NCBI RefSeq assembly: GCF_013409205.1
Contig: NZ_JACCAE010000001.1
Coordinates: 868,001 to 932,000, forward strand
Direction: 5' to 3'
Length of the DNA: 64,000 nt
Source of the DNA: Janibacter cremeus
Lineage (GTDB): Bacteria; Actinomycetota; Actinomycetes; Actinomycetales; Dermatophilaceae
Position numbers and translations under genes: made by a program. A model generated the notes under the pieces. The model worked only from the letters and a program-made list of their open reading frames with translations. It ran no database searches and was not told where the DNA came from. Positions 31,950-58,218 of the stretch are shown here, in pieces (the first letter of the stretch is position 1; each line of letters begins with the position of its first letter).

Positions 31950-32072
31950 TGCCGCGACAGATCAGTCCCGTCAGCTTCGAACTGCAACACTGCAACCAGC
32001 ACGCGGCATCAAGCCGCATAACCCGGTGACCAAGAAACGGGGTCAAGGCAAGGCCAATGTAAGGATGTGGGT

Positions 32073-32804
32073 GTGAAGTCACTCTATGTCGGCGTGCAAG
32101 ACGTGCCACCCCTACTCAACGATCCGGTTGTTGTCATCGATGTGCTGCGGGCTTTCACAACCTCAGCGTGGGTGCTAAGTCGACGGCCGGCAGGCTTATC
32201 GCTGAGTCCTACACGCATAGGTGCGCTTCGCCTCAAAGCAGAGTTGGGGGCCGGCGCGGTGGCGATCACCGATGGCGAGTTGTCTGAGGGGTTCGACATG
32301 GGTAACTCTCCTGGTCAAGCCCGAAGATTCCCTCTCCAAGGGAGGCCCGTCGTGCAAGTCACCAGCAACGGGACCGTCGGAGTACACGCTGCCCGCCATG
32401 CCCCCCTCATTCTGTGCGCGAGCCTTGCCAATGCATCTGCCACGGCACGAGCCATACGGGCCAGCGGCTCTAAGCGCGTCATCTATGTAGTAACGGGCAA
32501 CCAGGGAACAGCCGATGAAGACCTCGCCTGCGCCGATCTCATCCACGCACAGACCAAGGGAACCGGGTTGCCAACCGACAGCGTCGAACGAGTTCGTGGG
32601 TCGGCCGCGGCACACGCGCTGCGAGAAGACATCGCCGCGTGCCGCCCAGGGGTCAGCAGTGACGACGTCGATCTCGCATGCGAGATCGATCGCTTCGATT
32701 TCGCCCTGATCACGGAAGAAAACCATGGACGCTTCGATCTACGGTCGAGTACTTCTGAGCGGGGACGCTGGCTGGAGGGTGGTGGTGTGAGACGAACCAC
32801 GTAG
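32073..32804 (+). CDS. ComB-like 2-phosphosulfolactate phosphatase family protein
   Basis: A 243-residue protein with the family core VVVIDVLRAFTTSAWVL, GFDMGNSPGQARRF, TSNGTVGVHAA and a late NHGRFDL. ComB enzymes make sulfolactate in the coenzyme M route; actinobacterial members have no settled role. GTG 32073 was preferred because AAGGA lies seven bases upstream; GTG 32067 is too close. First gene inside the island's left end. Confidence 0.75.
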   Translation: MKSLYVGVQDVPPLLNDPVVVIDVLRAFTTSAWVLSRRPAGLSLSPTRIGALRLKAELGAGAVAITDGELSEGFDMGNSPGQARRFPLQGRPVVQVTSNGTVGVHAARHAPLILCASLANASATARAIRASGSKRVIYVVTGNQGTADEDLACADLIHAQTKGTGLPTDSVERVRGSAAAHALREDIAACRPGVSSDDVDLACEIDRFDFALITEENHGRFDLRSSTSERGRWLEGGGVRRTT

Positions 32805-33029
32805 GCGTCATCGTTGGGTGTGCGGCCTATCGGCGATGACCTGGATCACACAGGGAGCGAGTAAACTAGCGGACAAAGACGATCATCAACAACGTGGAAA
32901 CGGAGACGGCTTCCACCTGACGCACAGGGTCTCGGTGGGACACCTCCCTACCCGGAGTGCTTGGGGAATGTCTGCAGAAGCCATATTCGGGGTTGCGGGC
33001 GCAACCATTGCAGTGAACTGACTCGTGGC

Positions 33030-34373
33030 TCAGCCTTCGTCGGGGTCGCGGGAGATCCCCGGGAGAAGGGTGTATCCCCTGCGCAGCGCGTCCATCGCTC
33101 CCGGGGACTCGGCTACGAGGTCTAGTGAGCGTTGGTGGTAGCGCCAGATCATCCACGCGCCGAAACCCCACAGCAGGAACTGCGAGCTCATCGCGATCCG
33201 GAAGTTGTCCAGCGTGTAGGTCTGCGGTCCGCCCGGCGCGATCTGGTCGAGGATGATCCCCACGAGGGCCATCGTCGTCAACGACGCGACGAAGCCGCCC
33301 ATGTTGACCATCCCGGACGCCCGCCCGTAGCGCTCGCTGCGGTGGAAGCTACGGGCCAAGTCGAAGGCGATCAAAGACCCCGGACCACCGACCGCGGTGA
33401 CCGAGACGAGGACGATCAGCAGCCACAGCGGCGACTGGGTCGGCAACGCGAGCACGATCGCCCAGACCAGCGAGATGGCACCGACGAGCACCAGGGCCAT
33501 CAGCGAGCGGTAGTAGGGGTGACGGCCGGTCCAGCGGCCGATCGTCGGCCCGGCGAAGAGCGCAACGAAGGTCATCCACGTCAGCAGCGCCGAGGCCTGC
33601 CCCGGCGTCAGACCCTGCCCCGCGACGAGGAAAGGGAACCCCCAGAGCAGCGCGAAGACGGTCGGGGCGAACTGCGTGGTGAAGTGCACGGAGAACCCGA
33701 GTCGGGTTCCCGGATCACGCCACACCTGACCGAGACTGTCGCGCAGGGCGCGGATCTTGATCTTCTCGACGGCGCCGCGCTCGTAGGGCGAGTCCTTGGC
33801 GACGAGGAAGATCCCGAGGATGCCCACGACGCCGAGGAAGCCGGCCGTCGCGTAGGTCATCGTCCAGCCCCAGGCGTGCAGGGCGGCGCTGAGCGGGATG
33901 GCCGCGGCGACGGCACCCATCTGCCCGACCATCCCGGTGAGCTGGGTGATGACCGGCGCTTGGCGCACGAGGAACCACAAGGCGATCAGGCGCAACACGG
34001 AGGTGAAGACCATCGCGTCGCCGGCACCGATCAGGGCTCGAGCACCCAGGCCCATCGCGAAGCTGTCCGCCGTGGCGAACCACAGCTGTCCCGCGGTCAT
34101 CGCCACGAGCCCGCTGATGATCAGCGCCTTGGACCCGAAGCGGTCGAGCAGCACACCGACCGGGATCTGCATCCCCGCGTACACCGCGAGTTGGAGCACG
34201 GTGAAGGTCGCCAGCTGGCTGCCGCTGATGTCGAAGCGCTCGGCCGCGAGGAGCCCGGCGACCCCAAGGGAGGTGCGGTGGAAGACCGCGAGCACGTAGA
34301 CGGCGAGCGCAGTCGCCCAGATGACGTAGGCACGACGCCGCCCTATGTTGTGCAGCTGTTGTGCCCCGGTCAC
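33030..34373 (-). CDS. Major facilitator superfamily transporter
   Basis: A 447-residue permease with twelve predicted helices and the MFS loop LLDRFGSKALIISGL (GxLxDRxG-like). Other helices include YAGMQIPVGV and SLIAFDLARSFHRSERYGRA in the second half. Its GC and codon use resemble the chromosome more than the other island genes do. Substrate unknown. It faces the ComB-like gene convergently, and IS3 remnants begin 46 bases upstream of its start. Confidence 0.85.
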   Translation of the reverse strand: MTGAQQLHNIGRRRAYVIWATALAVYVLAVFHRTSLGVAGLLAAERFDISGSQLATFTVLQLAVYAGMQIPVGVLLDRFGSKALIISGLVAMTAGQLWFATADSFAMGLGARALIGAGDAMVFTSVLRLIALWFLVRQAPVITQLTGMVGQMGAVAAAIPLSAALHAWGWTMTYATAGFLGVVGILGIFLVAKDSPYERGAVEKIKIRALRDSLGQVWRDPGTRLGFSVHFTTQFAPTVFALLWGFPFLVAGQGLTPGQASALLTWMTFVALFAGPTIGRWTGRHPYYRSLMALVLVGAISLVWAIVLALPTQSPLWLLIVLVSVTAVGGPGSLIAFDLARSFHRSERYGRASGMVNMGGFVASLTTMALVGIILDQIAPGGPQTYTLDNFRIAMSSQFLLWGFGAWMIWRYHQRSLDLVAESPGAMDALRRGYTLLPGISRDPDEG

Positions 34374-34418
34374 GAATTCATGCCATTGAATACGGCCGCA
34401 TCGCCGGAGAGGGCTCTC

Positions 34419-34740
34419 TGTCGCGTTCCAGGTCTGATGGAGCTCTCATTCCACGGAAGGATGAGGGTCATGGCAGCACCAAGAAAGTACCCCGAGGAGC
34501 TTCGGGAGCGGGCAATCCGGATGGCAGTCGATCTGGGTCGTGACCCAACAACGATGGCGGGTGGACGGTCAGCGAGAAGACCGTCGCGGATTCGATACGC
34601 CGCCAGTGCCTGGTCGTGCGAACGGTCAAGCGTCGCAACGGTTTGACCGTCCAGGACAGGACGACGCCGAAGTTCCCGGATCTGGTCCGACGGGACTTCA
34701 CCGCGCAGTGCCAGGACAGCAAGTGGGTAGGCGTTCTGCA
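34419..34740 (+). mobile_element. Chimeric IS3-family remnant
   Basis: 34419-34555 matches the left end and orfA start of the IS3 copy at 55563 (TGTCGCG terminus, then MRVMAAPRKYPEELRERAIR). At about 34556 it fuses to part of a different IS3 orfB (GGWTVSEKTVADSIRRQ, LTVQDRTTPKFPDLVRRDFT). A run of C residues follows near 34750. Not functional. Confidence 0.8.
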
Positions 34741-34848
34741 AGACCATTGCCCCCCCCCCCCGACTTCGGCTCCACCTAGCTTCCACCACTGCTACACCTC
34801 GTGAGGTAGTTAGTGCGTCAAGTCTCTACCTTGGATCTAGCTCCATAC

Positions 34849-35832
34849 TCATTTGACCCGCGATTTGTTCTGCTTAGCCATTAGCCATTCTCCAGCCATG
34901 AATACTTCCTGCGGCTTCTGATTTGTTCCATCATGAGGTGAAATGGGCGCAATCAGAGCATCGTAGTTCGGGTTTTGAAAGAAGGGAATCGACAAGCGGC
35001 GCGAGGAGCCCCGCACCGAGTCGTTTGGGTTTACCACTCGGTGCACGGTGGATACCCAACGACCATCTGTCCACTTCGACATCATGTCGCCAATGTTGAT
35101 CACATACGCATTCGGGACATTCGGTGCGTCGACCCACTCGCCAGTGGGCGCCTGTACTTGCAGACCGCCCGGCGCGTCATCAGTCATTAGGAGAGTCAAA
35201 GTTCCGTAGTCGGTATGTGCGCCGGCGCGCAATTGACCGGGAAGCGGCTCTTCATCTTGTGCAGGATAATTGACGCAGCGAAGGTAATCGACGCTGCGGT
35301 CGAGCTTATCGGCAAAGAAATCATGGGGAAGATTGAGGGCCCCTGCAAAAAGACGCATCACCCGTTGCGCCAACCTTTCCATCTCATGGTAATACTCGGT
35401 CCACGTTTCGCGGAATTCGTCCGGATCTTTTGGCCATACCATTGGCCGGAAGAAGTATTGCCCCATTCCCGAGTTGTAGTACTCATCCTCAGGTGCATCG
35501 GGGCGACGGATGTCAAAACTCTCCTTGAGGTCCGGCGGAGTATCTTCCTCCCGAGTTGCGGCAAGACTTTCCTTTTGCGACGGCACCCACCCCATAGTTT
35601 GCCCCGGCTCGGAGACGGACTGCCGCTTCAGCCTCTCGGGCAAGTCGAAGAAGGCGGTGGAGACTTGGCGCATGCGCAAAATCACATCGTCAGGCACCCC
35701 ATGTCCAGTCACAACCAAGAACCCAATATTCTCGCAGGCCTCCTTTACTGCTAGTTCCACATTTCGACTCTCCTCCGCGTCTGGGCCTTCGAACGGGGAC
35801 AAATCTATAATGGGAACACCGGTGGCACTCAT
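34849..35832 (-). CDS. 2-oxoglutarate/Fe(II) oxygenase of the isopenicillin-N-synthase family
   Basis: A 327-residue oxygenase with the DIOX_N start (VPIIDLSPFEG) and CENIGFLVVTGHGVPDDV. The iron triad is AHTDYG (HxD) and STVHRVVNP (distal H), with the 2OG-binding RRLSIPFF. Such enzymes hydroxylate, demethylate or desaturate small molecules. The gene is clearly less GC-rich than its neighbours, a sign of separate origin. A promoter-like region with a palindromic motif precedes it. Confidence 0.85.
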   Translation of the reverse strand: MSATGVPIIDLSPFEGPDAEESRNVELAVKEACENIGFLVVTGHGVPDDVILRMRQVSTAFFDLPERLKRQSVSEPGQTMGWVPSQKESLAATREEDTPPDLKESFDIRRPDAPEDEYYNSGMGQYFFRPMVWPKDPDEFRETWTEYYHEMERLAQRVMRLFAGALNLPHDFFADKLDRSVDYLRCVNYPAQDEEPLPGQLRAGAHTDYGTLTLLMTDDAPGGLQVQAPTGEWVDAPNVPNAYVINIGDMMSKWTDGRWVSTVHRVVNPNDSVRGSSRRLSIPFFQNPNYDALIAPISPHDGTNQKPQEVFMAGEWLMAKQNKSRVK

Positions 35833-35885
35833 CGCTATGTCACTCCTATTACTTCGACAGCAGATTCCTGCATATCATGGATGGG

Positions 35886-36797: not shown

Positions 36798-37288
36798 CTG
36801 CTGGGGGTGAACGCGGCAACGTTGCACAACTGGACCAAGACAGCCGAGCGGACCGAAGGCTCTCGGGCTGCTGCGCCGGCCCGGGCGGGCGAGTCGGAGG
36901 AGGTCAAGACGTTGCGCCGGGAGAATGCTGAGCTGCGGCGGGCCAACGAGATTCTCAAGATCGCATCGGCGTTCTTCGCTCAGGCGGAGCTCGACCGCCG
37001 ACTCAAGTGATCGTGGCCTACATCGACTCCTACCGGGAGCGATTCGGCGTCGAGCCGATCTGTGCCGTGCTCTCCGAGCACGGCATCTCGATCGCGCCGT
37101 CCACGTACTATGTCCACAAGACCGTCCCGGTCAGTCCAGCTGCGTTGTGTCGAGTGGCAGCTCGCCTCCTGGGTGCACTGGTACGACACCCAGCGCCTCC
37201 ACTCCTCGATCGACCACCTGCCACCAATTGAGTTCGAACCGCATCACCGGCAGGCTAAGACCACGACCCCCATCCTGGCGGCCGTGTA
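36798..37288 (+). pseudogene. IS3-family element fragment (orfA end and internally deleted orfB)
   Basis: 36798-37010 is the orfA tail ([30 protein letters not shown]). 37007 begins orfB (IVAYIDSYRERFGVEPICAV), which jumps near 37137 to its C-terminal end in another frame (WVHWYDTQRLHSSIDHLPPI then EFEPHH). The catalytic core is deleted. Confidence 0.8.
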
Positions 37289-37360: not shown

Positions 37361-38038
37361 CTAGTTGATCCCGTGCCTATCATAGGCGTCCATCATGCGC
37401 TGACGCACCTTGCTTAGGTGGGTTCGCATGGCAACGTCGGCAGCTACGTCATCGCCAGCATCTACCGCGTCCATGATCTCCAAGTGCTGGTCAGCGCATT
37501 CCACGGAGTAGGGAGTCCCTGGCGCGTCTCGCGCGCGCAAAGCACTAGTCAGGTCGTAAGAGTCTCGTACAAGCCGCATGAGTACGTCATTTTGGGTTGC
37601 TTCGCACAAGGACATATGGAAACGCTCATCATTTTGTCGAAATCCCTCGCGGTCGCCTCGCTCAGCAACTTCTTTACTCGATGTCGCATACGAACGCGTC
37701 TCCTCCAGCATGGATCGTACGCCCTTGAGCGCCGCGATACGCGCAACCTGAGCCTCCAGGCCCTCCCGCACGTCGTAGGCATCAGAAAGAGCTTGACGCG
37801 TGGGTGTCATCACTCGCCCGCCACCAGTGGCGCCAGACTGGACTAAGCCCACGTAGGCCAATCGCAGCATGGCCTCACGAACCGGAGTCTTGCTGACTCC
37901 GAGCTCCTTCGCCAGGCCCTCTTCAGTCAGGCGCTGACCAGCCGGAAACTTACTAGCCACGATGGCACTACGCACCGATGCGTAGACCCGATCGCTGAGG
38001 CTCATCGGGCGATCATCGATCTTGTCTAGTATGCCCAT
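37361..38038 (-). CDS. GntR-family regulator (FadR/FCD subgroup)
   Basis: A 225-residue regulator: winged HTH SDRVYASVRSAIVASKFPAG, LTEEGLAKELGVSKTPVREA, then an all-helical FCD ligand domain (YDVREGLEAQVARIAALKG, DERFHMSLCEATQND, HLEIMDAVDAGD) with metal/acid-binding His residues. ATG 38038 starts MGILDKIDDRPMSL; the frame stays open upstream but without family similarity. It probably senses a substrate or intermediate of the island's oxidative pathway and may control the oxygenase at 34849. Confidence 0.85.
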   Translation of the reverse strand: MGILDKIDDRPMSLSDRVYASVRSAIVASKFPAGQRLTEEGLAKELGVSKTPVREAMLRLAYVGLVQSGATGGGRVMTPTRQALSDAYDVREGLEAQVARIAALKGVRSMLEETRSYATSSKEVAERGDREGFRQNDERFHMSLCEATQNDVLMRLVRDSYDLTSALRARDAPGTPYSVECADQHLEIMDAVDAGDDVAADVAMRTHLSKVRQRMMDAYDRHGIN

Positions 38039-38368
38039 GGTGACCCCCGGCAGTGATTGGATTGGATCGAAGAACAGCCCAGAGCTTGCCCACTGGACAT
38101 CGTGCATACAGTACCGTACACCGTATCCAGAAACGTCGCAGACCGCAGAGGTGAAGCGAACACAGACGAATTGGATCGGCACCGGCTCACCTCGCCTGCC
38201 CTCAAAGCTAATCTGCACCGCCGTCGCCCCGAGGCCGCGCGCACCCGCCAAATCCGGCTCTCCGTGGTTCGTGGTGAGAGGGAGTCCCGCGTCGTAGCAG
38301 CGTAGGAGCTCGTGGCCCTGCGGTGATGAGTGTTGTCGATACATCCAAGTACAGAGGACCACGAGACT
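38039..38368. other. Gap without a supported gene
   Basis: Holds the GntR promoter region with ATACAGTACCGTACACCGTA (38106-38125) and a minus-strand open frame contiguous with the GntR gene that shows no family similarity. Confidence 0.5.
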
Positions 38369-39014: not shown

Positions 39015-40434
39015 GGTCAAGTCCCCGGTAGTGGTGTAGCGCTGCGTGATCCTTCGGGGTGGGGTTAGGCGGTCAGGGCGGGCATGGTTTCGGCTCCGAT
39101 CTCGGGGTCGGTGGTGGTGATGAGAGTGACGCGGCAGCGGGCCAGGACGTCGAGGCCGAGGTAGCGCCGTCCTTCGGCCCATTCGTCGGTCTGTTCGGCC
39201 AGGACGGCTCCGACCAGACGCACGATGGCGTTGCGGTTGGGGAAGATCCCAACGGAGTCGGTCCGGCGTCGGATCTCGCGGTTGAGGCGCTCCTGGGGGT
39301 TGTTCGACCAGATCTGGGTCCACACGTCCTTGGGGAAGGCTGTGAACGCGAGGATGTCCTCCCGCGCGCCGGCGAGGTGCTCGGCCACCTGTGGGAGCTT
39401 CTCGTCGACGTACTCGATGAGCCGGTCGAACTGGGCCTGCACGCTGGGTGCGTCGGGCTGGTCATAGACACTGTGCAGCATCGCCTTGACGGCCGGCCAC
39501 ATCGACTTGGGCGTGACGTCCATCAGGTTCGCGGAGTAGTGGGTGCGGCATCGCTGCCACGCGGCGCCGGTCAGGTTCGCCGCGATCGCTTCCTTCAACC
39601 CTTGGTGGGCGTCGGAGGTGACCAGACGTACCCCGGTCAGGCCGCGGGCGGTCAGGTCGGCGAAGAACTCGTTCCATGCGGACCCGGTCTCGGAAGTGGC
39701 CACGCGCAGTCCGAGGACTTCGCGGTGCCCGTCGGCGTTGACCCCGGTCGCGAGCAGTACCGAGGTGGCGACCACGCGCCCGCCCTCGCGGACCTTCATC
39801 GTCAGCGCGTCGGCGGCGACGAAGGTGAACGGTCCCGCCTCGTCAAGGGGGCGGTGGCGGAAGTCCTCGACGATCTGGTCCAGGTCGGCCGCCATCCTGC
39901 TGACCTGCGACTTGGACAGGGAGTTGATGCCGAGGGTCTTGACGAGCTTGTCCATGCGGCGGGTGCTGACGCCGGCGAGGTAGCAGTCGGCGACGACGGT
40001 GATCATCGCCGACTCGGCCCGCTTGCGGCGCTCGAGCAGCCACTCGGGGAAGTAGCTGCCGGTGCGCAGCTTCGGGATGGCGACGTCGACGGTCCCCACG
40101 CGGGTGTCCAGGTCGCGGTGGCGGTACCCGTTGCGCTGCGCCGAGCGGCCCGGTGTGGGGCGGCCGTACTCGGCGCCGACGACGGCGTCGGCGTCCGCGG
40201 ACAGCAGCGCGTTGATCATCGTCTGCAACAGCGAACGCATCAGATCCGGGCTTGCTTCGGTCAGGGCTTCACTCAGCAGGCCCGCAGGGTCGACAATGTG
40301 TGGTGCGGTCATCGTGATGACTCCGTTCGAGGATTCGGTAGAAGGTTGACTCGAAGGATCACACGGTGGCCGCACCTATGCCCTCAGGGGCACCTAGTCT
40401 GCCACCGCGCTACACCACTATGCGGGACTCAACT
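39015..40434. mobile_element. Complete IS256-family insertion sequence
   Basis: Terminal inverted repeats of ~28 bases (GGTCAAGTCCCC...TAGTGGTGTAGCGC and its counterpart ending at 40434), with an 8-base target duplication GCGCCTGG at 39007-39014 and 40435-40442. It carries one intact transposase and is inserted in an ISL3 transposase pseudogene. Confidence 0.92.
39065..40312 (-). CDS. IS256-family transposase
   Basis: A 415-residue DDE transposase: YGRPTPGRSAQRNGYRHRDL, GTVDVAIPKLRTGSYFP, AADALTMKVREGGRVVATSV (first D), LVTSDAHQGLKEAI (second D), CRTHYSANLM, NNPQERLNREIRRRTDSVGI (catalytic E). The ATG at 40312 (MTAPHIVDPAG) is taken rather than an upstream codon. Complete, so the element may still be active. 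Confidence 0.93.
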   Translation of the reverse strand: MTAPHIVDPAGLLSEALTEASPDLMRSLLQTMINALLSADADAVVGAEYGRPTPGRSAQRNGYRHRDLDTRVGTVDVAIPKLRTGSYFPEWLLERRKRAESAMITVVADCYLAGVSTRRMDKLVKTLGINSLSKSQVSRMAADLDQIVEDFRHRPLDEAGPFTFVAADALTMKVREGGRVVATSVLLATGVNADGHREVLGLRVATSETGSAWNEFFADLTARGLTGVRLVTSDAHQGLKEAIAANLTGAAWQRCRTHYSANLMDVTPKSMWPAVKAMLHSVYDQPDAPSVQAQFDRLIEYVDEKLPQVAEHLAGAREDILAFTAFPKDVWTQIWSNNPQERLNREIRRRTDSVGIFPNRNAIVRLVGAVLAEQTDEWAEGRRYLGLDVLARCRVTLITTTDPEIGAETMPALTA

Positions 40435-40442
40435 GCGCCTGG

Positions 40443-42266: not shown

Positions 42267-42345
42267 GAATGCCTTCTTTCGCATCTTCAATAAACGTGCA
42301 TCCCTAGTCGTCGCCCGAGCAACAGGTAACCAGAAAAGGGGGCCG

Positions 42346-43398: not shown

Positions 43399-43760
43399 CC
43401 CTTGCTCCCTAGTAGAGATAATGTGACCTATCGGACAGCGCGAAGTCGGCTGCCACAGATAGGAACGACTTCAGCGTGAGGGTGGGTCGGCCCCCAACAT
43501 TCTGGTTGCGGTTCACGCGGATAGCCCACGTCTACATGGACAAGCACGCTACGTTCGCCCATGCTCTCGACGTGATCAAATAACTCACTCAACCTGCGTT
43601 TCAGCGCGCCGCCCCCACCCCCTCGCCGCGGAGAAATTCGAAACAACTCCCGTCGGCGTCGCTCCTCCCGCCAGGACCTCTTGGACTAGCCATCCGGATG
43701 GGTGATCAGCACACCCCTATCCGTGACGCGAGCGGTCTTCTCCCCAGACTGAGGTCACCG
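43399..43760. other. Gap without a supported gene
   Basis: Holds the probable promoter of the NHL/dehydrogenase pair (GGGAGCAAGG just before the ATG at 43398) and short open frames without family similarity. Confidence 0.5.
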
Positions 43761-44753: not shown

Positions 44754-44873
44754 TCGTCCTCCTGTTCAATGTGTGCCCGCGGGTTCCGGGCTCGAGACCA
44801 GTCTTGCTGGGGGGCGATGGCGAAGCCATGCACGCCTTGAGCAGGTTTATGCACGAAGTGGTCAGGGCGCTGC

Positions 44874-45734: not shown

Positions 45735-45749
45735 AGGTCACTAGGAGGA

Positions 45750-48216: not shown

Positions 48217-48275
48217 TTCCGTACCTCACTATCGATGGATGCATGAGCCGCGCAGCACGAAGCGCGGAGAAGGGG

Positions 48276-49112: not shown

Positions 49113-49891
49113 CACTTTCCCTCCAGCCCTCGCCGCAGGTAGGCGGCAAGCTCCGTGAACTGGGCGGTGTCGCGCACGTCGAGATGTCTGGGATGCGGCA
49201 GCGGAACGTTTACGATTTCCCGCAGACGACCAGGGTGGGCACTCATCACGGCTACCCTTTGGGAAAGGAATACCGCTTCGGCAATGCTGTGAGTGACGAA
49301 GACGATGGTGATTCCGGTTTCCTGCCAGATCCGCAGTAGTTCCTCGTTGAGTTTGTCGCGGGTGATTTCGTCGAGCGCGCCGAAAGGTTCGTCCATGAGC
49401 AGGACTTCAGGCTGGGTCACCAGCGCTCTGGCGATAGCCACGCGTTGACGCATGCCGCCGGAGAGCTCGTGAGGGTACGCCTCCTCGCGGCCTGCCAAAC
49501 CGACGAGCGCCAAGAGGTCTTGGGGGCTCGAGCTACTCTTGGCTCCCTTGTTCCCGCCCACTTCGAGAGGCAGTTGCACGTTCTGTAGGGCAGTTCGCCA
49601 TGGCAGAAGCGTGGAGTCTTGGAAGACAAAGCCGATCTCCCGGCGCTTTCGAGCCTCACTGGCCTTACCGCCGAGGACTGAGACTTCGCCATCTGTAGGA
49701 TTCACGAGATCGGCGACAATCCGCAGCAGTGTGGACTTGCCACAGCCAGATGGACCGAGCAAGGAAAAAAACTCGCCAACCTCGATCTCGCTGTGGTAAT
49801 CGTCCAGAGCGAGTACTTTGCCACGATCGGTGGAGAACTCGACGCTGACGTGGTCCAGATTTACGGCCGTTGGTGCTTTGGTAGTTGTCAT
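49112..49891 (-). CDS. ABC transporter ATP-binding protein
   Basis: A 259-residue nucleotide-binding subunit: Walker A LLGPSGCGKSTLLR, Q-loop VFQDSTLLPW, signature LSGGMRQRVAIARAL, Walker B LLMDEPFGALD, switch VTHSIAEAVFLS. It is of the nitrate/sulfonate/taurine type (SsuB/TauB). The stop overlaps the permease start; the BtpA-family gene ends 19 bases before its ATG. Confidence 0.93.
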   Translation of the reverse strand: MTTTKAPTAVNLDHVSVEFSTDRGKVLALDDYHSEIEVGEFFSLLGPSGCGKSTLLRIVADLVNPTDGEVSVLGGKASEARKRREIGFVFQDSTLLPWRTALQNVQLPLEVGGNKGAKSSSSPQDLLALVGLAGREEAYPHELSGGMRQRVAIARALVTQPEVLLMDEPFGALDEITRDKLNEELLRIWQETGITIVFVTHSIAEAVFLSQRVAVMSAHPGRLREIVNVPLPHPRHLDVRDTAQFTELAAYLRRGLEGK

Positions 49892-49910
49892 GGCATCTCC
49901 CGATGGTCGT

Positions 49911-50738
49911 TTAACGTGCCTGAAGACCGGTCGTCCACGCATTCGCGAACTCGGTTGCCATGTCGCTGCTGACAGGCTGGAGCATGTCGGCATTGGGCTT
50001 AGAGCCCCACCCGAAGACGGCGCCGTCGGCGACCTTTGCGTAGGTGGGAGCGTGCTCGACGGTCATACCGCTGCCCATGATCACCGGGGCGTCCGGTATG
50101 GCGTCCTTGATCTCGCGGATCCGATCTTGGCTTGCAGGCTGGCTGGAGTCATGGCCGGCGATGATGATGCCATCGGCTCCGCCACGCTTGATCATGTCGG
50201 CCGCGATGACGGGTACCGGACGCTCGACGAGCGGCGCCGCGTGCTTTGTGAGTAGGTCCGCGAGAATCAACACGTCGTCGGCGCCGATTTGCTTGCGGTA
50301 GCGGGATACCAGGTGGGCGGCACCGTTGATCATGCCTTGGTCGGTGATCATCGCGTCGGTCAGGATGTTAAGCCGAATGAACTTCGCGCCAACAGCGGCA
50401 GCAATACCTAGGGATGCCTTCCACGAGTTCCGTAGGATGTTGATGCCCATGGGGAGGTCGATCTCCTCGGCGACCGCCTTGGCACACACCGTGGCGGAGG
50501 CCACGGTCTCTGGTTCGATGGTTTCGGGGTAGTAGGGGTAGTCGTGCAAGTTTTCGACCAGCAGTGCGTCGACACCGGCGTCGGCTAGGGTCTGGGCGTC
50601 AGCCAGCGCCTTGGTGATGACGTCTTGGAGACTGCCGCCGAAGGTGGGCGATCCGGGCAGTGCGTGCAGGTGCACCATGCCAAGGATCGGCGGGCGGCTG
50701 GGGAATACGCTGTGGAAGCGCTCGGCGTACATGCTCAT
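49911..50738 (-). CDS. BtpA/SgcQ-family TIM-barrel protein
   Basis: A 275-residue protein with the family signatures ILGMVHLHALPGSP, DALLVENLHDYPYYPE, INILRNSWKASLGIAAAVG, FIRLNILTDAMITDQGMING, and GGADGIIIAGHDSSQP near the end. BtpA was described as a photosystem I assembly factor, while SgcQ sits in a sugar cluster of E. coli; the enzymatic role is unsettled and may involve a nucleoside or sugar phosphate. Its position inside a catabolic operon favours a metabolic role. Confidence 0.82.
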   Translation of the reverse strand: MSMYAERFHSVFPSRPPILGMVHLHALPGSPTFGGSLQDVITKALADAQTLADAGVDALLVENLHDYPYYPETIEPETVASATVCAKAVAEEIDLPMGINILRNSWKASLGIAAAVGAKFIRLNILTDAMITDQGMINGAAHLVSRYRKQIGADDVLILADLLTKHAAPLVERPVPVIAADMIKRGGADGIIIAGHDSSQPASQDRIREIKDAIPDAPVIMGSGMTVEHAPTYAKVADGAVFGWGSKPNADMLQPVSSDMATEFANAWTTGLQAR

Positions 50739-50804
50739 GGTGGTTTCTCCTTGTGACGTATTGGCATTGGCTCGGGGTGGAACGGTTGGGCACGTGCGAT
50801 CAGA

Positions 50805-51584
50805 TCACCAGACACCCCCGCGGTATTCCGGGTCAGCGAAGGGACCGCCCTGATGTTCGGGTTCGTCCGTCTCGGCAACGGACGACAAGTGGTCCTCGGC
50901 GTCGTCGACGGGGTGGTAGGCGAGCAGTTCGGCCGACGGGCTGTTGTTCCACCAGCTGCGGGTGTTGGCTGAGACGCCGTATGTGACGAGGAAGCCCACG
51001 TCTTCGGCCGCAATGGCTCGCCGGACGAGGTGGATGCCGTCGCGATGGCTCAACCACACGCTCAGATGTCGACGGTCTTCGGGCGTTGGGCGAAAGGCCC
51101 CGATCCGCAGACAGACGGCCTCCAGGCCCCACTTGTCGTGGTAAAGCCGCGCGGCTCCCTCCCCGAATACCTTGCTCAGACCGTAGTACGTATCCGGACG
51201 GACCGGTTCCTCGGTACCGAGGAACTGACCGGCTGGATACCCACCGATGATGTGATGCGAACTGGCATAGACCACCCGGCGCACGCCCGCACGGCGAGCA
51301 GCCTCGAAGATGGCCCATGTGCCCATGATGTTGCTCTCGGCGATGTCCGCGAAAGGGGCTTCATCGGCGATGCCGGCGAAGTGCAGGACCACGTCGACCC
51401 CCGCCATGGCATTGGTGAGGGTGTCCAGATCGTCCAACTCACCGACCACGACCTCCTCGCCGGGGTTGAGGTCTGGAATGTCGCGGCGCGCGTACAGGAC
51501 CACGCGCTCAAACTCGCCGGACAGGCCAGCTCGCAGAACGGTGCCCATACGGCCACCGCCTCCGGTGTACAAGATGACGGTCAT
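50805..51584 (-). CDS. NAD-dependent epimerase/dehydratase-fold protein, uronate-dehydrogenase-like
   Basis: A 259-residue SDR: YTGGGGRMGTVLRAGL (NAD site), VVLHFAGIADEAPF, IMGTWAIFEAARRAGVRRVV, SSHHIIGGYP, and the catalytic TYYGLSKVFGE (YxxxK). Size and motifs match uronate dehydrogenases, which oxidise an aldose or uronate C1 to a lactone with NAD. The lactonase gene overlaps its start (ATGA), which supports a dehydrogenase-lactonase pair. Confidence 0.78.
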   Translation of the reverse strand: MTVILYTGGGGRMGTVLRAGLSGEFERVVLYARRDIPDLNPGEEVVVGELDDLDTLTNAMAGVDVVLHFAGIADEAPFADIAESNIMGTWAIFEAARRAGVRRVVYASSHHIIGGYPAGQFLGTEEPVRPDTYYGLSKVFGEGAARLYHDKWGLEAVCLRIGAFRPTPEDRRHLSVWLSHRDGIHLVRRAIAAEDVGFLVTYGVSANTRSWWNNSPSAELLAYHPVDDAEDHLSSVAETDEPEHQGGPFADPEYRGGVW

Positions 51585-52561
51585 GAGAGATTTCTCCTTG
51601 GGAAGTCGTGATCCAGCAGGCGCGAAAGGTCAGCGGTGAGCACCGTCGATGTCTCGGACTCGGTGACAAAGACGCGTCCGTTGTCGGTGACGCACAGGTT
51701 GGTGACGGCTCGTCCCGTTGGGCTATGCAGGGCCATGACGGCGGTGCCGGTGGGGTCGAAGACCCAGACCACCCCGAGGCCGAGGTGGGCCACCAGCAGC
51801 GTGCCCTGCGGGCCGGCAGCCATGCCGTCCGGCCCCAAGCCACCGCTAAGCTGCAGGTATCGTCCGACGCGATGGGGAACGGACTCCACCAAGGGCACCC
51901 GCCAGATGGCGTTGTCACGGGTGACTGCGACGAAGACCGTAGCGCTCTTCTCGTCCCAGACCAGACCGTTCGGGCTGGGGATGCCCTCGAGCACCACCTC
52001 GACAGCGACCTGCGTCGCATTCCCTTCTTCGGTCGCGTTCTCGCCCCCTGCGGGGAGACGGACCCGCAGCAACCTTCCGTAAGGATCGTCCAGACCCGAG
52101 TCACCCTGGTCCGTCACGTAGACAGTGCCGTCGCTGGTAACGACCAGATCGTTGAGACCGTGAAAAGCTGCACCGTCGACCTCGTGGACCACCACTCCCA
52201 CCCGTGGCTCCCCACGCAAGTCGGCGATCTCCACAAGCCCTCGCTGGTAGTCGGCCACCAGCAGACGGTCCGGACCGGCAAGAGCCAAGCCATTCGGCTC
52301 GCCGTCGTACTCGACGACGACCCGGAACTCACCGTACCGGTCGACGTACAGGATCCGACCCCACGCCACATCCACCATGTACAGACCGCCGGCACCGTCG
52401 AGCACCGGTCCCTCCAAGAAAGCCAACGGTGCAGGGACACCCCGGTCGTGGCGCATCCAACCGGGCTGGCGGTCGGTGACCGCCAAGCTCTGCGTCACCC
52501 GGGCGTAGACCTCGAGCCGTTCGCTTTGAGGGACGAGTGTCGTTGGCAGCAAGATGGTCAC
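51581..52561 (-). CDS. SMP-30/gluconolactonase-family lactonase
   Basis: Opens sugar lactones to the free acids. The 326-residue six-blade propeller has FLEGPVLDGAGGLYMVD (metal Glu), YDGEPNGLALAGPDRLLVAD, FHGLNDLVVTSDGTVYVTDQ, IPSPNGLVWDEKSATVFVAV and GLGPDGMAAGPQGTLLVAHL (metal Asn and Asp). The GTG at 52561 overlaps the TGA of the FAH gene (GTGA). It acts between the dehydrogenase and the dehydratase of the cluster. Confidence 0.87.
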   Translation of the reverse strand: MTILLPTTLVPQSERLEVYARVTQSLAVTDRQPGWMRHDRGVPAPLAFLEGPVLDGAGGLYMVDVAWGRILYVDRYGEFRVVVEYDGEPNGLALAGPDRLLVADYQRGLVEIADLRGEPRVGVVVHEVDGAAFHGLNDLVVTSDGTVYVTDQGDSGLDDPYGRLLRVRLPAGGENATEEGNATQVAVEVVLEGIPSPNGLVWDEKSATVFVAVTRDNAIWRVPLVESVPHRVGRYLQLSGGLGPDGMAAGPQGTLLVAHLGLGVVWVFDPTGTAVMALHSPTGRAVTNLCVTDNGRVFVTESETSTVLTADLSRLLDHDFPRRNLS

Positions 52562-53424
52562 ACCTGCTCGGCGCGCACTGGGTTCAGCAGCGGCATGAGT
52601 CCGTCAATTCGGGCCTCGGCCACGCATCCTGGCGTGAGAACACCAGCGCCTGGGGTGCCTGTGGAAATGATGTCGCCCGGATAGAGCGGCATCATCTGAC
52701 TGTGAAAGCTCACCAGATCAGCCGGTGCGTGGGTCATGTTGGCCACGCGATCCCGCCGCACCTCGGATCCGTCCAGGAGCGTGCACACCTCGATGTCCTC
52801 CAGAGGACCCTCGGCAAGGAACTCGTCGAGGGTCACGACCTCGGGGCCGAAAGAGAAAAAGGTGGGGAAGTTCTTCGACCGAGTGAGGTAGCGCGGGTTG
52901 AGCTGGAGGATGTCCTCCGCGGTTTGGTCCAGGACGGCACACACACCGAACACGTGGGCCATGGCGTCTGTCGGGTCGACGCCCTGGGTACGCCTCCCCA
53001 CGACTAGTCCGACCTCCGCCTCGGCGGTCGTGCGCTCGCTCTGCGTCGGCAGGACGATGGCCTCACCAGCACCGATAATGGTGTGATCTGCCTTGATGAA
53101 GGAAGCCGGCTGGTCCGGCGCTTGCTCGGACAAGTCACCAGCATGCTTGCCGTAGTTGAGGCCGATGCCCCAGATCTTGCGCGGTCGCCGATACGGCGGC
53201 TGGAAGCGCGCGTCGGCCTCCCGAATGACCATGTGTGATGGCATGTCGTCGGCGACTTGCTGCAGACCGACGAACTCGTCGGTAAGCCAAGTCCCGCTGT
53301 CCAGGAAAACCAGCAGGTCACCTTGGAACTCTGGACGCACGTGATTCAGTGGAGCCCAATCGCGGTCGGACCGGCGGATGCAGGCCTGATCGGACCCGGC
53401 GATCTCCAGTGTTGCGAATCGCAT
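52558..53424 (-). CDS. Fumarylacetoacetate hydrolase family protein
   Basis: A 288-residue FAH-fold protein: KIWGIGLNYGKHAGD, IIGAGEAIVLPTQSERTTAE (metal and base residues), AEVGLVVGR, SKNFPTFFSFGPEVVT, and YPGDIISTGTPGAGV. Family members hydrolyse or decarboxylate 2-keto acids such as 2,4-diketo-3-deoxy sugar acids. Placed between the lactonase and the dehydratase, it fits the terminal cleavage step of a non-phosphorylative sugar-acid route. Confidence 0.88.
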   Translation of the reverse strand: MRFATLEIAGSDQACIRRSDRDWAPLNHVRPEFQGDLLVFLDSGTWLTDEFVGLQQVADDMPSHMVIREADARFQPPYRRPRKIWGIGLNYGKHAGDLSEQAPDQPASFIKADHTIIGAGEAIVLPTQSERTTAEAEVGLVVGRRTQGVDPTDAMAHVFGVCAVLDQTAEDILQLNPRYLTRSKNFPTFFSFGPEVVTLDEFLAEGPLEDIEVCTLLDGSEVRRDRVANMTHAPADLVSFHSQMMPLYPGDIISTGTPGAGVLTPGCVAEARIDGLMPLLNPVRAEQV

Positions 53425-53433
53425 ACCTGCCCC

Positions 53434-54564
53434 CTAGGCCCAGCTGTCCAGGGCGCAGTCCTCGACCACGTCATCGACGAAGTCGAAGCCGAGTCCATGG
53501 CGAGTCGGCAGCCTCACCCCAGCGGGCACAATTTCCAACTGGTGCGAGACCGCTCGGCGGAAGTTGAGCACCTGGTCGTTGGGGAAGTACTCCACATACT
53601 GCCCGTTGGTCAGGGACCCGACCAGATGCACATGCAGGTCATGGAACCAGTGCGGGCACATGGACACGCCGAATGAGGCGGCAGTGTCGGCGATGCGCTG
53701 GTACTCGGTGATCCCGCCACAAACGGCGGCGTCAGTCTGCAAGATGCCCGCGGCGCCCTGGGTGAGCAGTTGGAGATGGCGCCAGCGGCCCTGCTCGATC
53801 TCACCGGTTGCTACGGTCACCGGGGTGCGCTCTGCCAACCTGGCATGGTTGATGATGTCGTCAGGAAAGAAGGGCTCCTCGATCCAGTACGGGTCATACG
53901 GCTCCAGCAGCCGTAGCGCACCCAGTGCGGTGGGGAGGTCCGGCCACGCATTGTTGGCATCGAGCATCACCTTGACCTCTGACCCCACCGCAGCCCGGAC
54001 TGCGGCCAGGCGTTCGGCGTCCGCTTCCGGAGCAACACCCACCCGACCGACTTTCATCTTCACCGCGTCGAAGCCCAGCTCCACATAGCCCTTCATCTCG
54101 TCTGCCAGATCATCGGGGGTCTTGCCGGCGAGGTAGTAGCCACCGCTGGCGTATGCGGGTACCCAGTCCCGCGTGGTCGCACCCCCAAGGAATTGCCACA
54201 AAGGCTGCCCCACGGCCCTGGCGTTCAGATCCCAAAGAGCGATGTCGACCGCGCTGTGGGCCCGAGTCACAAGTCCAGCTCGGCCATGCAGGATGGTCTC
54301 GGCGTAGACCTCGTCCCAAAGTGCGCGGACGTTTCGGCTGTCATGGCCCACCAGAATGGGGGCCACCAGGTCTCGCACGGCACCGGAGAGCAAGGGGCCA
54401 CCGAAGTTGCCGGCGTAGCAGAACCCGATGCCCGTGTTGCCGTCCTCGTCGGTGATGCGCACAAAGCAGTAGTGCCGCTCGGTCACCTCTCTACGGGCCA
54501 TCGCGGTGGGGGTATCCAGGGGAATCGCCACGGTGCGCGCCTGGATACTGGTAATGCGGGTCAT
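53434..54564 (-). CDS. Enolase-superfamily sugar-acid dehydratase (mandelate racemase subgroup)
   Basis: A 376-residue protein with the MLE_N capping domain and the barrel residues in order: FDAVKMKVG (KxK), VMLDANNAW (metal D), YWIEEPF (metal E), VATGE (third metal ligand), and a late CPHWFHDLHVHLVGS (His region). This matches the mandelate-racemase/dehydratase group that removes water from aldonic or aldaric acids. The exact substrate cannot be read. It starts 39 bases after the SDR gene. Confidence 0.88.
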   Translation of the reverse strand: MTRITSIQARTVAIPLDTPTAMARREVTERHYCFVRITDEDGNTGIGFCYAGNFGGPLLSGAVRDLVAPILVGHDSRNVRALWDEVYAETILHGRAGLVTRAHSAVDIALWDLNARAVGQPLWQFLGGATTRDWVPAYASGGYYLAGKTPDDLADEMKGYVELGFDAVKMKVGRVGVAPEADAERLAAVRAAVGSEVKVMLDANNAWPDLPTALGALRLLEPYDPYWIEEPFFPDDIINHARLAERTPVTVATGEIEQGRWRHLQLLTQGAAGILQTDAAVCGGITEYQRIADTAASFGVSMCPHWFHDLHVHLVGSLTNGQYVEYFPNDQVLNFRRAVSHQLEIVPAGVRLPTRHGLGFDFVDDVVEDCALDSWA

Positions 54565-54603
54565 CGGAACTCCTGTCGTTGAAGATTGTCGATTGCGGGG
54601 CGG

Positions 54604-55392
54604 TCAGGGGAGGGAAGCTGTCAGGCCGCCGTCGACGAGAATCGTTTGCCCTGTCACGTAGGAGGCGGCCTCGGACGCCAAGAAGCCGACGAGCGCAGCG
54701 AACTCCTCAACCCGGCCATAGCGACCCATGGGGATCGAGCCCTCGGACGCGGCCCGGACCTCCTCGGCAGTCCGCCCGGTGCGCTCAGCGCCCGCAAGGT
54801 CAAGTTGCCGTACGCGGTCGGTGTCGACGCGGCCAGGGGCCACGACATTCACCGTCACGTTGTCTGCGGCAAGATCGATGGCCAAGTCCTTGACCAGCCC
54901 ATTGAGCGCGGGCCGGAAAGTGTTGGACAGCGTCAGGTTGGGGATCGGCCGTCGGACGCTGGATGAGCCGATCAGGATGATGCGACCACCGCCGAGGGCG
55001 CGCATGTCGGGCAGCACTTCCCGAACGCACCGCACGAAACTCATCAACGTCAGCTGATAGGCCGTCTCCCAACTCTCGTCAGCCAAGGCCTCGAAGCCTC
55101 CTGCAGGAGGCCCACCCGCGTTGGCGACCAGGACCGAGATGGGGCCCAGTTCGGTGCGGACACGTTCCACAGCCTCGTGGAGCTGTTCGGGATCGGAAAC
55201 GTCCGCGGCCACGCCGAGGGAACGTGTATGGGCCGCGAGTGTGCTCGCCGCGGCCTCCGCGCTCTCCGCACTCCGGGCGCAGAGCGCCACGTCATGACCG
55301 TCTTCAGCCAGCCTACTGGCGCATCCATATCCAAGACCCTTGCTGCCAGCCAGCACCAAGGCGGTCGAGCGGGTGGTGGTGGTGAAACTCAT
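54604..55392 (-). CDS. SDR-family oxidoreductase lacking the canonical YxxxK
   Basis: A 262-residue Rossmann protein: ALVLAGSKGLGYGCASRL (NAD(P) site), VLVANAGGPPAGGFEAL, IILIGSSSVRRPIPNLTLSN, VNVVAPGRVDTDR, and ASYVTGQTILVDGGL. At the usual YxxxK site the residues are SNTFR (in LTLSNTFRPALNG), so the catalytic Tyr and Lys are absent; this fits an uncharacterised SDR subgroup. First gene of the minus-strand catabolic operon, start ATG 55392. Confidence 0.85.
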   Translation of the reverse strand: MSFTTTTRSTALVLAGSKGLGYGCASRLAEDGHDVALCARSAESAEAAASTLAAHTRSLGVAADVSDPEQLHEAVERVRTELGPISVLVANAGGPPAGGFEALADESWETAYQLTLMSFVRCVREVLPDMRALGGGRIILIGSSSVRRPIPNLTLSNTFRPALNGLVKDLAIDLAADNVTVNVVAPGRVDTDRVRQLDLAGAERTGRTAEEVRAASEGSIPMGRYGRVEEFAALVGFLASEAASYVTGQTILVDGGLTASLP

Positions 55393-55425
55393 AAGATGAC
55401 CTGCCTCACGTTGGGTATGCGAGAC

Positions 55426-55453
55426 ACAGTATCTAGTACTCAAGAACTGTCAA
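55426..55453 (-). promoter_or_regulatory. Promoter and operator of the catabolic operon
   Basis: On the minus strand TTGACA (55453-55448) and TACTGT (55431-55426) are 16 bases apart. AGTACTAGATACT, an inverted repeat with AGTA/TACT arms, overlaps the -10 region and is a likely operator. It lies 34 bases upstream of the SDR start. Confidence 0.5.
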
Positions 55454-55614
55454 TGGGGTGAAGACTTACGAGAAGAGAGCTGGCCCGCGGAAACCTTCGG
55501 TGGACTCCGCCGTTGTTTCGTTGGTGGATGGGCGTGCACTGGGGCGTGCTCCGGTGAAGGTCTGCCGCGTGCCGGGTCTGATGGAGGCTCTCATTCCACG
55601 GAAGGATGAGAGTC

Positions 55615-55935
55615 ATGGCAGCACCAAGGAAGTACCCCGAGGAGCTTCGGGAACGGGCGATCCGGATGGCGGTCGATCTGCGGCGTGACCCGGCCACGAG
55701 GAGCGGTGCTCTTCGTCGGGTCGGTGAGCAGCTGGGGATCAACCCTGAGACGCTGCGGAACTGGGTCTCCCAGGCCGAGATCGACCAGGGTCACCGCCCC
55801 GGCGTCACCACGGCCGAGGGTCAGCGCATCGCCCAGCTTGAACGTGAGAACAAGGAGCTGCGGCGAGCGAATGAGATCTTGCGGACGGCCTCGGCGTTTT
55901 TCGCCGCGGCGGAGCTCGACCGCAAGCTGAAGTGA
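55615..55935 (+). CDS. IS3-family OrfA
   Basis: 106 residues: APRKYPEELRERAIRMAVDL (HTH), LGINPETLRNWVSQAEIDQG, then the leucine zipper [20 protein letters not shown]. The ATG at 55606 is an alternative start. It ends overlapping orfB by four bases, where a programmed frameshift would fuse the two. Confidence 0.9.
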   Translation: MAAPRKYPEELRERAIRMAVDLRRDPATRSGALRRVGEQLGINPETLRNWVSQAEIDQGHRPGVTTAEGQRIAQLERENKELRRANEILRTASAFFAAAELDRKLK

Positions 55936-56642
55936 CTACGGCGGTGCTGGTCGACTACATCGACCAGCACCGCGACCGGTTCGGGGTCGAGCCGATCTGC
56001 ACCGTCCTTCGCAGGGCGGGGATGCAGATCGCCCCGAGCAGCTATTACGCCGCCAAGACCAGACCGCCGTCGGCCAGAGCGGTGGCCGACCGGCGGCACC
56101 TGGAAGTGCTCCAGCGGGTGCACGCGGAGAACTACGGCGTCTACGGGGTCCGGAAGATGCACGCCGAGCTCAACCGGCGCGGTCATCGGATCGCCAGGTG
56201 CACCGTGCACCGGCTGATGCGAGCCGACGGGCTGCGCGGAATCAGTCGGGCCAAGGGTCCGCGCACCACCATCGCCGGCGCCGGTCCGGATACCCGCCCC
56301 GACCTGCTCGACCGCGACTTCAAGGCGCCCGCACCAAACCGGGTCTGGGTCGCGGACATCACCTACTGCCGCACCTTCGCCGGCTGGGTCTACGCGGCCT
56401 TTGTCATCGACGTCTACTCCCGCCGGGTGGTGGGCTGGCAACTGTCGAAGAGTCTGCGCACCGACCTGGCGCTGGACGCCCTCGAGATGGGCTTGTGGAC
56501 CCGCGACCACGCCGGCCAGGACACCACCGGTGTGATCGCACATTCGGACAAGGGAGTGCAGTACCTCGCGGTGCGCTACACCCAGCGGCTGGCCGAGGCC
56601 GGCGCCGTAGCGTCGGTCGGATCCACCGGTAACAGCTACGAC
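55932..56642 (+). pseudogene. IS3-family OrfB transposase, 5' part, split by IS110
   Basis: VDYIDQHRDRFGVEPICTVL, KMHAELNRRGHRIARCTVHR (HTH_21), then the DDE core NRVWVADITYCRTF (first D), TGVIAHSDKGVQYLAVRYTQ (second D) and GSTGNSYD at 56642. The following catalytic-Glu segment is displaced to 57967, after the IS110. Confidence 0.92.
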
Positions 56643-56873
56643 TGTGAGAGTCTCAATCACCATCAGGCGGCCTGACTCTTGCTTACGACTGACCCCGAAG
56701 TCTGGGTGTCCTGGCTGTTGATCTGTCGTCCGCTTGGTGGTGCACCACCACATGGTGCTGGCCGGGCGGGCGTGACCTCATAGGAGCCTGATTCAGCAGT
56801 CTCATCACAGTCCCGTCCACCCGACCGGCCAGCGTCACTCGCCCTGTCCCTGGTCTGGTTGGAGCAAGTACTG
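56643..56873 (+). ncRNA. Candidate IS110 bridge-RNA region
   Basis: Non-coding left end with self-complementary parts, e.g. GGTGGTGCACCACC at 56736-56749 and GGCCGGGCGGG/CCCGTCC stretches. Known IS110-subgroup elements express a guide RNA from this position whose loops pair with donor and target. Loop-target pairing was not computed here. Confidence 0.45.
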
Positions 56874-57950
56874 ATGAGCATGCAACAGGTCCCCGCACAC
56901 CGTCGAGTCGTCATCGGCGTCGACACCCACAAACACGTCCACGTCGCCGTCGCGATCGACGAGCTCGGCGCCACCTTGGGCAATCGCTCATTCGCAGCCG
57001 ATACAGGCGGCTACCTCGAATTGATCGACTGGGCACTGGCCTTCGGCGGCAAGCCCACTTTCGGCATCGAGGGAACCGGCTCTTACGGCGCCGGTCTGGC
57101 TAGCGCGGTGCGCCGCCGCGATATCGGCGCTATAGAGGTCGTGCGTACTGACCGGCGCGATAGGCGCCTGCGGGGCAAGTCCGACTCCATCGACGCTGAG
57201 AACGCTGCCCGCGCTGTTTTGGCCGGGCAGGCCACCGCGATCCCGAAGACCGCCGACGGCACCGTGGAGATGATCCGCCAGGTCAAGGTGGCCAAGGACA
57301 TCGCGGTCAAGGCACGCACTGCGGCGATGATCAGCCTCAAGCAGGTCATCGTCAACGCTCCACCGCAGCTGCGTGAGGATCTGCAGCCGCTGTCGAAGAT
57401 GGCGCTGATCAACCGGTGCGCCGCACTGCGACCCGGCCAGGTCACCACGATCCTGTCGTCCTCGAAGTACACCCTGCGTGCGATCGCTCGACGGTGGCAG
57501 CACCTGAACGAGGAGATCAGCGGCCACGAGAAGGTCCTGGAACAGCTGACCACCCAGGTGGCGCCGGACCTGACCGCAGCGTTCGCGGTTGGTCCCGACA
57601 CGGCAGCTGAGATGCTCATCGTCGCTGGCGACAACCCTGAGCGGATTCGCTCCGAGCCGGCCTTCGCACGACTGTGCGGCGTCGCCCCGATCCCGGCCTC
57701 CTCCGGTATGACCAACCGACACAGGCTCAACCGCGGCGGCCACAGGCAAGCAAACGCCGCCCTCTATCGCGTCGTGATCGTGCGGATGCAACACCACGAG
57801 CCGACGAAGGCCTACGTTGCTCGGCGCACCGCGGAGGGCAAGACCAAAGCCGAGATCATCCGATGCCTGAAACGACTCCTCGCCCGCGAACTCTGGGCCG
57901 CAATGCGACCCCTGCGCCAGCCCCGCGAAGCATCACCCGAAGCCGCTTGA
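56874..57950 (+). CDS. IS110-family transposase (DEDD recombinase)
   Basis: A 358-residue recombinase: RuvC-like DEDD domain with VVIGVDTHKHVHVAVAI (first D), TFGIEGTGSYGAGLA (E), DRRDRRLRGKSDSIDAENAA (D, D). The C-terminal Tnp_20 domain has FARLCGVAPIPASSGMTNRH (candidate nucleophile Ser) and RLNRGGHRQANAALYRVV. ATG 56874 is taken; a TTG at 56859 is possible. It appears intact. Confidence 0.9.
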   Translation: MSMQQVPAHRRVVIGVDTHKHVHVAVAIDELGATLGNRSFAADTGGYLELIDWALAFGGKPTFGIEGTGSYGAGLASAVRRRDIGAIEVVRTDRRDRRLRGKSDSIDAENAARAVLAGQATAIPKTADGTVEMIRQVKVAKDIAVKARTAAMISLKQVIVNAPPQLREDLQPLSKMALINRCAALRPGQVTTILSSSKYTLRAIARRWQHLNEEISGHEKVLEQLTTQVAPDLTAAFAVGPDTAAEMLIVAGDNPERIRSEPAFARLCGVAPIPASSGMTNRHRLNRGGHRQANAALYRVVIVRMQHHEPTKAYVARRTAEGKTKAEIIRCLKRLLARELWAAMRPLRQPREASPEAA

Positions 57951-57966
57951 CAGATATAGGAGCATC

Positions 57967-58203
57967 AACGCGCTGGCCGAGGCGTTCAACTCGCTGTTCA
58001 AGGCCGATCTGGTCCGCAACAAGGGCCCCTGGAAGAACATCGACGACCTCGAGATCGCGGTCGCTGAGTACATCGACTGGTTCAACTATCGACGCCTCCA
58101 CGGCGAGATCGGACTCGTCCCACCGGTCGAGTTCGAAGAGCAGCACTACCGGCACAACCCCGTAGCGACTACCGTCGCTACGTCAGTTCAGAGTCTCCAC
58201 TGA
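57967..58203 (+). pseudogene. IS3-family OrfB transposase, 3' part
   Basis: NALAEAFNSLFKADLVRNKG (catalytic E in AEAF), PWKNIDDLEIAVAEYIDWFN, RRLHGEIGLVPPVEFEEQHY: the C-terminal end of the OrfB that starts at 55932. In frame from 57967 to the TGA at 58201-58203. Confidence 0.92.
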
Positions 58204-58218
58204 ACCCGGCACGCGACA

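Follow-up and report, generated by a model that had tools for sequence, protein, structure and literature searches.

A putative catabolic island with IS3-family termini in Janibacter cremeus and an IS110-family element at catalytic-site codons of its transposase gene

Composite transposons are delimited on both sides by the outer ends of insertion sequences (IS), carry passenger genes, are flanked by a short target duplication and have an empty site in relatives. All of these features are shared by a 26.27-kb island at positions 31950-58218 of a 64,000-nucleotide stretch of the Janibacter cremeus chromosome (hereafter the window, positions 868001-932000 of a 3.31-Mb genome in one contig), which departs from the described pattern in that its left IS consists of 7 bp, its right IS is interrupted and the movement of the whole is something that we infer. 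The right-hand IS, for which we use the working name ISx, resembles other members of the IS3 family in its orfA/orfB arrangement with an ALIL pseudoknot, its rve and HTH_21 domains and its imperfect terminal repeats starting TGYCGCG; nothing excludes it from the family, and its orfB is interrupted. The interrupting element belongs to the IS110 family and is comparable to ISEc21, likewise an IS110 with a noncoding region upstream, which is described as targeting IS3-family transposase genes at catalytic-site codons, namely those of the second aspartate (D) (PMC11187229). Part of the island cargo recurs, in conserved gene order, in Aeromicrobium sp. PE09-221.

The best explanation of this locus, to which we assign a probability of roughly 0.75, is an insertion of composite-transposon type, bounded by two ISx copies of like orientation and followed by decay. 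The island lies within a single minus-strand gene, the N-terminal half of which occupies 58222-58646 (start ATG at 58644-58646) and the C-terminal half 31553-31949. As read from the sequence, the two junctions carry CTG at 31947-31949 and 58219-58221, the left and right copies of a 3-bp target duplication. The first-pass annotation of this DNA had proposed that the halves are parts of one gene, with CTG at both junctions, and that deletion of the island plus one CTG restores a continuous frame, and each of these observations was confirmed. Removal of 31950-58218 with one CTG yields a single 273-aa open frame reading through ..IDVIRS-SVPRSVNRVL.. (joint 31949|58222), and the encoded protein aligns without gaps to an intact 273-aa protein of Janibacter alittae, the closest relative within the genus (P0001; 254/273 residues identical). 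At the DNA level 175 of 196 aligned bases across the joint agree with J. alittae, with 0 gaps, and the host gene has neither lost nor gained a base relative to that species. When both CTGs are kept the frame is still open and the host protein is longer by one residue, so that the open frame alone does not fix the exact base, and the cut could fall anywhere inside the three CTG bases.

Alignment of the joined flanks to related genomes had been set beforehand as the test of this proposal, and besides the intact J. alittae gene of the predicted length it returned a consistent picture across the genus. A match to the host gene was found in 14 of 16 Janibacter genomes (own genome counted), and in 12 of the 15 other genomes it lay in one stop-free stretch of about 250 aa or longer. 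One 120-contig assembly (G006) holds the match in pieces on two contigs, and two genomes (G002 and G014) gave no match in this search; halves existing as separate genes, a finding that would have spoken against the proposal, were not seen anywhere in it. We aligned the joined flank DNA to 11 of the 12 one-stretch loci (G009 was left out), and the alignment crosses the joint in 11/11, with an M16-peptidase neighbor next to the host gene in all of them. The remaining matches to the split gene within its own genome are only 28-36% identical. The family assignment made in the first-pass annotation, DUF559/AbiEi, fared less well than the split itself and is weak: the intact J. alittae protein scores 13.3 bits against DUF559 (cut-off 20.6) and 14.5 bits against REase_MTES_1575 (cut-off 38.2), AbiEi gives no Pfam match even at E 10, and DUF559 is the name that UniRef gives to the protein. 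We refer to the host as a DUF559/REase-like gene.

The island ends, which the earlier reading took as fixed, proved to be IS3-family termini, a point that goes beyond that reading. On the right, ISx occupies 55563-58218 on the plus strand, with inverted repeats at its two extremities (TGCCGCGTGCCGGG at 55563 and, on the reverse strand, TGTCGCGTGCCGGG ending at 58218; 5 mismatches in 19). It encodes orfA (55606-55935) and an orfB in two parts (55932-56642 and 57967-58203; the frame as it stands is 55932-56675), the overlap of the two genes carries the frameshift pseudoknot (55893-56036; RF01497, 68 bits against a gathering threshold of 50), and the transposase is of the DDE type (PF00665 and PF13276). 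Similarity to an ISx relative in Rhodococcus (L108) begins at 55563 (query base 3) and ends at 58218, beyond which 1 of 12 outer bases is alike, and similarity to a Janibacter relative (L113) likewise begins at 55563. On the left, the island begins with TGCCGCG (31950-31956, plus strand). ISx opens with the same 7 bp at 55563, and we read the left terminus as a remnant of an ISx left inverted repeat. Three of the five ISx relatives readable at both ends have 3-bp duplications (CTC in L109, CAC in L147 and CTT in L148), the latter two depending on our placement of the element ends in the flanks.

The flanks of the right-hand ISx are GTC on the inside and CTG on the outside. This rejects ISx as a lone insertion and means that at least one further ISx copy is needed; entry through the present right-hand IS alone, a matter on which the first-pass annotation was silent, does not account for the locus. 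A duplication shared by the outer ends and not by the right ISx alone is the signature of either composite insertion or circle recombination. A second ISx right end was sought inside the island, and within 3 mismatches of 19 only 58218 matches; a 4-mismatch candidate at 31990, which falls within the ISy remnant described below, was taken as chance. The block bounded by the outer ends of two like-oriented ISx copies would have inserted in the DUF559/REase-like gene and duplicated its target CTG, arriving either as a composite transposon or as an ISx-carrying circle that recombined with an ISx already present at CTG, and the data fit these two routes alike. A later deletion would have shortened the left ISx to its first 7 bp and fused these to the 3' remnant of a different IS3-family element, ISy (31957-32045, plus strand, comprising the orfB end and right end; outer limit set by eye). 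The IS110 element has cut orfB of the right ISx just before its catalytic-glutamate codon. Since the left ISx is lost and the right one interrupted, no working ISx pair remains, and self-mobilization of the island is unlikely.

Several observations weigh against this reading. In J. alittae the CTG target triplet itself differs, and the exact joint base therefore rests on the length match and the CTG repeat. One ISx is present, if interrupted, the other amounts to 7 bp only, and two flanking copies are thus deduced and not seen. Among 13 ISx-related loci scanned, 8 could not be read at both ends, and of the 5 that could, two (L108 and L151) lack a 3-bp duplication. The final 141 bp of ISx recur elsewhere in the genome (L002), but this copy was dropped as a means of fixing base 58218, since 5/6 bases beyond that position are alike too. 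At 34419 the left end of a further ISx-type element (3 mismatches in 22) adjoins a major facilitator superfamily (MFS) gene and is cut short inside the island, which implies that the left side of the island has been rearranged. Finally, no relative carries the island, and its movement as a unit is presumed.

The strongest rival is growth in place, in which a single ISx landed at CTG first and the island accumulated through IS insertions, ISx recombination and deletions without ever having been one unit. The interior does look like a patchwork of IS pieces, with IS3-family remnants at 31957, 34419 (34419-34563, plus strand, about 90% identical to 55563 onwards) and 36918 (36918-37280, plus strand, approximate limits, from a third IS3-family element whose frameshift pseudoknot lies at 36968-37099) alongside the IS256 and IS110 elements, and one nearly complete ISx remains. 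The GTC and CTG flanks of that ISx nevertheless call for a second copy, and the order of the core cargo genes is shared with the Aeromicrobium locus, so that the cargo core probably arrived as a block; we regard growth in place as unlikely, if clearly the most credible of the rivals.

Illegitimate recombination, with the common CTG and the 7-bp match both coincidental, could appeal to the brevity of the left ISx sequence and to its join with the ISy remnant, which is itself illegitimate. TGCCGCG occurs 22 times in the window on both strands, however, or 1.7e-4 per position, and it stands at the exact base expected; CTG has a frequency of 0.018 in the window, the host gene shows no lost or gained base against J. 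alittae, and on the right the island ends in an IS terminus, all of which make such coincidence very improbable. An integrase-driven island (an integrative and conjugative element, another integrative element or a prophage), in which CTG served as a minimal att core, would suit the size and foreign composition (63.1% G+C against 69.8% and 69.7% in the flanks). Yet in a Pfam comparison of 21 island open reading frames (ORFs), transposases apart, neither site-specific recombinases nor relaxases nor phage domains turned up, IS end sequence lies at both ends, neither of which has a tRNA, and the only tRNA in the window (63034) is 4.8 kb outside the island. A tRNA or integrase origin was rejected on these grounds as next to impossible, and the interpretation of the locus as an inserted island that split one gene stands supported.

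Composite-transposon-type insertion between ISx copies, then, describes an island of a known sort, and it is the target of the IS110 element that a specialist may not expect. This element (56643-57966, plus strand) consists of a 216-nt upstream noncoding region and a coding sequence (CDS) at 56859-57950 with PF01548 and PF02371 (Transposase_20; DEDD) domains, and its disabling of the right-hand ISx was likewise absent from the first-pass annotation. It splits orfB at SYD|NALAE, between the D and N codons and just before the codon of the catalytic glutamate (E). In an intact relative (L111) a hand count gives 35 residues separating the second D (of HSD) from the E, which, by the DD35E rule (PMC1525189), identifies the E after the split as the DDE glutamate. 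A near-identical IS110 copy of the same genome (L121, 1.144 Mb), with 2 differences over 1333 bp, lies in ISy, which it splits at this codon pair too. ISEc21 (IS110 family) is described in PMC11187229 as targeting IS3 transposase genes at their second-D codons, and a locus annotated as ISEc21 (L154) splits after ..FHSD, in agreement with the published target. Our literature search, covering among others the accessible parts of PMC11187229, PMC11208160, PMC2516522 and PMC1525189, found no paper on a glutamate-side IS110 target.

IS110 loci were drawn from two sources, genome searches (26 loci, L120-L145) and plasmids (15 loci, L153-L167); the plasmid loci were chosen partly for their nested look, so that no rate can be taken from them. 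Among the 26 genome-search loci, 6 split D|NA on both sides, 1 splits at the second D (L141) and 19 do neither. A tree was built from 38 rows after two partial loci (L123 and L135) and one with a broken transposase (L158) were dropped. In it, 15 rows are of the D|NA type by at least one junction (the window element, L121, L124, L128, L132, L139, L153, L155 and L161-L167), 3 of the second-D type (L141, L154 and L157) and 20 of neither by the motif rule, which is not exhaustive: on other readings L160 and L158 resemble the D|NA cases, and L158, the closest IS110 relative (86%), has a left junction that reads D-C-E in another frame. The hosts of the D|NA elements are different IS3-family transposase genes, in actinomycetes and alphaproteobacteria. 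The 15 D|NA rows and the 3 second-D rows, the locus annotated as ISEc21 among the latter, lie on opposite sides of a branch with support 100/99, and 2 of 500 label shuffles separate the two sets equally, a comparison in which the 20 unlabelled rows go uncounted and may lie between, and to which near-copies contribute. As judged from these sequences, the tree shows two separated IS110 types, and does not show the D|NA type as one clade.

Words shared between target and noncoding region may point to how the site is chosen. Fourteen loci with a D|NA left junction were searched for such words, with base 13 of the noncoding region as the origin of the offsets. A match to the left side of the target recurs at offset 28-31 (5 loci) and at offset 55-56 (3 loci), and GGCGTTG stands at offset 80 (4 loci). 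Seven loci have 6- to 7-base matches (shuffle p 0.007 to 0.16) and the other 7 of the 14 have matches of 4 to 5 bases only, so that the guide claim rests on the repeated offsets. In the window element the noncoding region repeats the target word TACGAC (shuffle p about 0.07). L161 has CTGGGAT in both target and noncoding region and L163 has TTACGAC at the same offset, fitting its own target; guide and target thus seem to change together, as they should if the word belongs to an RNA guide. In L121, by contrast, guide and target do not fit each other, which speaks against tight guide control. On balance we think it likely that one RNA-guided IS110 group lands at D|NAxAE codons of IS3-family transposases, beside the second-D type of ISEc21, and that it disarms IS3 elements and can freeze the composite islands they bound, as would have happened here.

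The cargo was assigned from Pfam and NCBIfam. Reading from the left, it comprises a 2-phosphosulfolactate phosphatase-like gene (32067-32804, plus strand; PF04029) and, all on the minus strand, the MFS transporter (33030-34373; PF07690), a 2-oxoglutarate (2OG)-Fe(II) oxygenase (34849-35832), a GntR/FCD regulator region (37361-38236), a group with a glutathione-independent formaldehyde dehydrogenase, an NHL-repeat protein, a PhyH oxygenase, an AraC regulator and a nucleoside hydrolase (41046-46745), an ABC importer with NMT1-type binding protein, permease and ATPase (47164-49993), and a cargo core with BtpA/SgcQ, a uronate-dehydrogenase-like enzyme, an SMP-30 lactonase, a FAH hydrolase, a mandelate racemase (MR)-type dehydratase and an SDR (49911-55443). 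The formaldehyde dehydrogenase match is above the cut-off of its model. Uronate dehydrogenases are the best solved relatives of the uronate-dehydrogenase-like enzyme (E 3e-53); the dehydratase has L-talarate/galactarate dehydratase as its best NCBIfam match, under the cut-off of that model, and its best solved relatives are MR enzymes that are unassigned or act on sugar acids. A 12-C run at 34750-34761, near the 2OG-oxygenase gene, is the only plus-strand run of at least 9 C in the window and is possibly a sequencing-sensitive or phase-variable tract.

Eight cargo genes are collinear, at 53-72% identity, with the locus of Aeromicrobium sp. PE09-221 (L027, 790-17599), the only one with so many shared genes among the 80 loci examined (the best 80 of 414 dehydratase matches): SDR, MR dehydratase, FAH, lactonase, uronate-dehydrogenase-like enzyme, BtpA, nucleoside hydrolase and 2OG oxygenase (68%), all in the same order. 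The regulator region also has a homologue there (55%). The Aeromicrobium locus alone has a peptide-type ABC importer and ADH, ECH (enoyl-CoA-hydratase-like) and CoA-ligase genes, whereas the island has the NMT1-type importer, AraC, PhyH and FdhA. At E 1e-40 the BtpA cargo gene was found in 1 of 186 genomes of the family, namely its own. Going by these predicted enzymes, the cargo most likely encodes a pathway of sugar-acid oxidation, the acid perhaps being set free by the nucleoside hydrolase from a nucleoside-like compound. Demethylation of 2'-O-methyl-nucleosides by PhyH, nucleoside hydrolase and formaldehyde dehydrogenase, an idea prompted by PMC12709175, was not supported: at E 0.001 the island PhyH has two weak structural relatives (2rdn and 5ep9) only and no PHYHD1 entry, and 21 kb of the Aeromicrobium locus (10 of its ORFs profiled) gave no PhyH match.

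Besides the IS3-family pieces, the island holds an IS256-family element (39015-40436, minus strand; Transposase_mut domain) that is one of three 100% identical genomic copies (39015-40436; L024:3357-4777; L025:10695-12001 with L024:1-116, the latter two in coordinates of the fetched stretches). The flanks of two IS256 copies suggest a 7-bp duplication (CGCCTGG and ACCTCCA). In a plasmid near-match search with 32050-55560, none of 62 records covered 80% of the query, so that a plasmid origin was not supported; in 19 of the 20 records listed the match is confined to the IS256, and H1 shows an additional matching piece. Neither this search nor that for BtpA in the family genomes turned up another location of the block. 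The ISy remnant (31958-32052) is 88% identical to 1144146-1144245 of the same genome.

The island thus offers a case, near base-level, of a foreign catabolic block that entered a chromosome between IS ends and was then apparently locked in, as one IS decayed and the other was struck by a further element. For IS110, the findings suggest that the catalytic-site codons of one mobile family serve another as a docking address. Such a target would be hard to escape, because prey that changed the encoded residues would lose activity. If this is true, IS110 elements of the D|NA type would disarm IS3 elements wherever they land and could freeze composite islands bounded by them.

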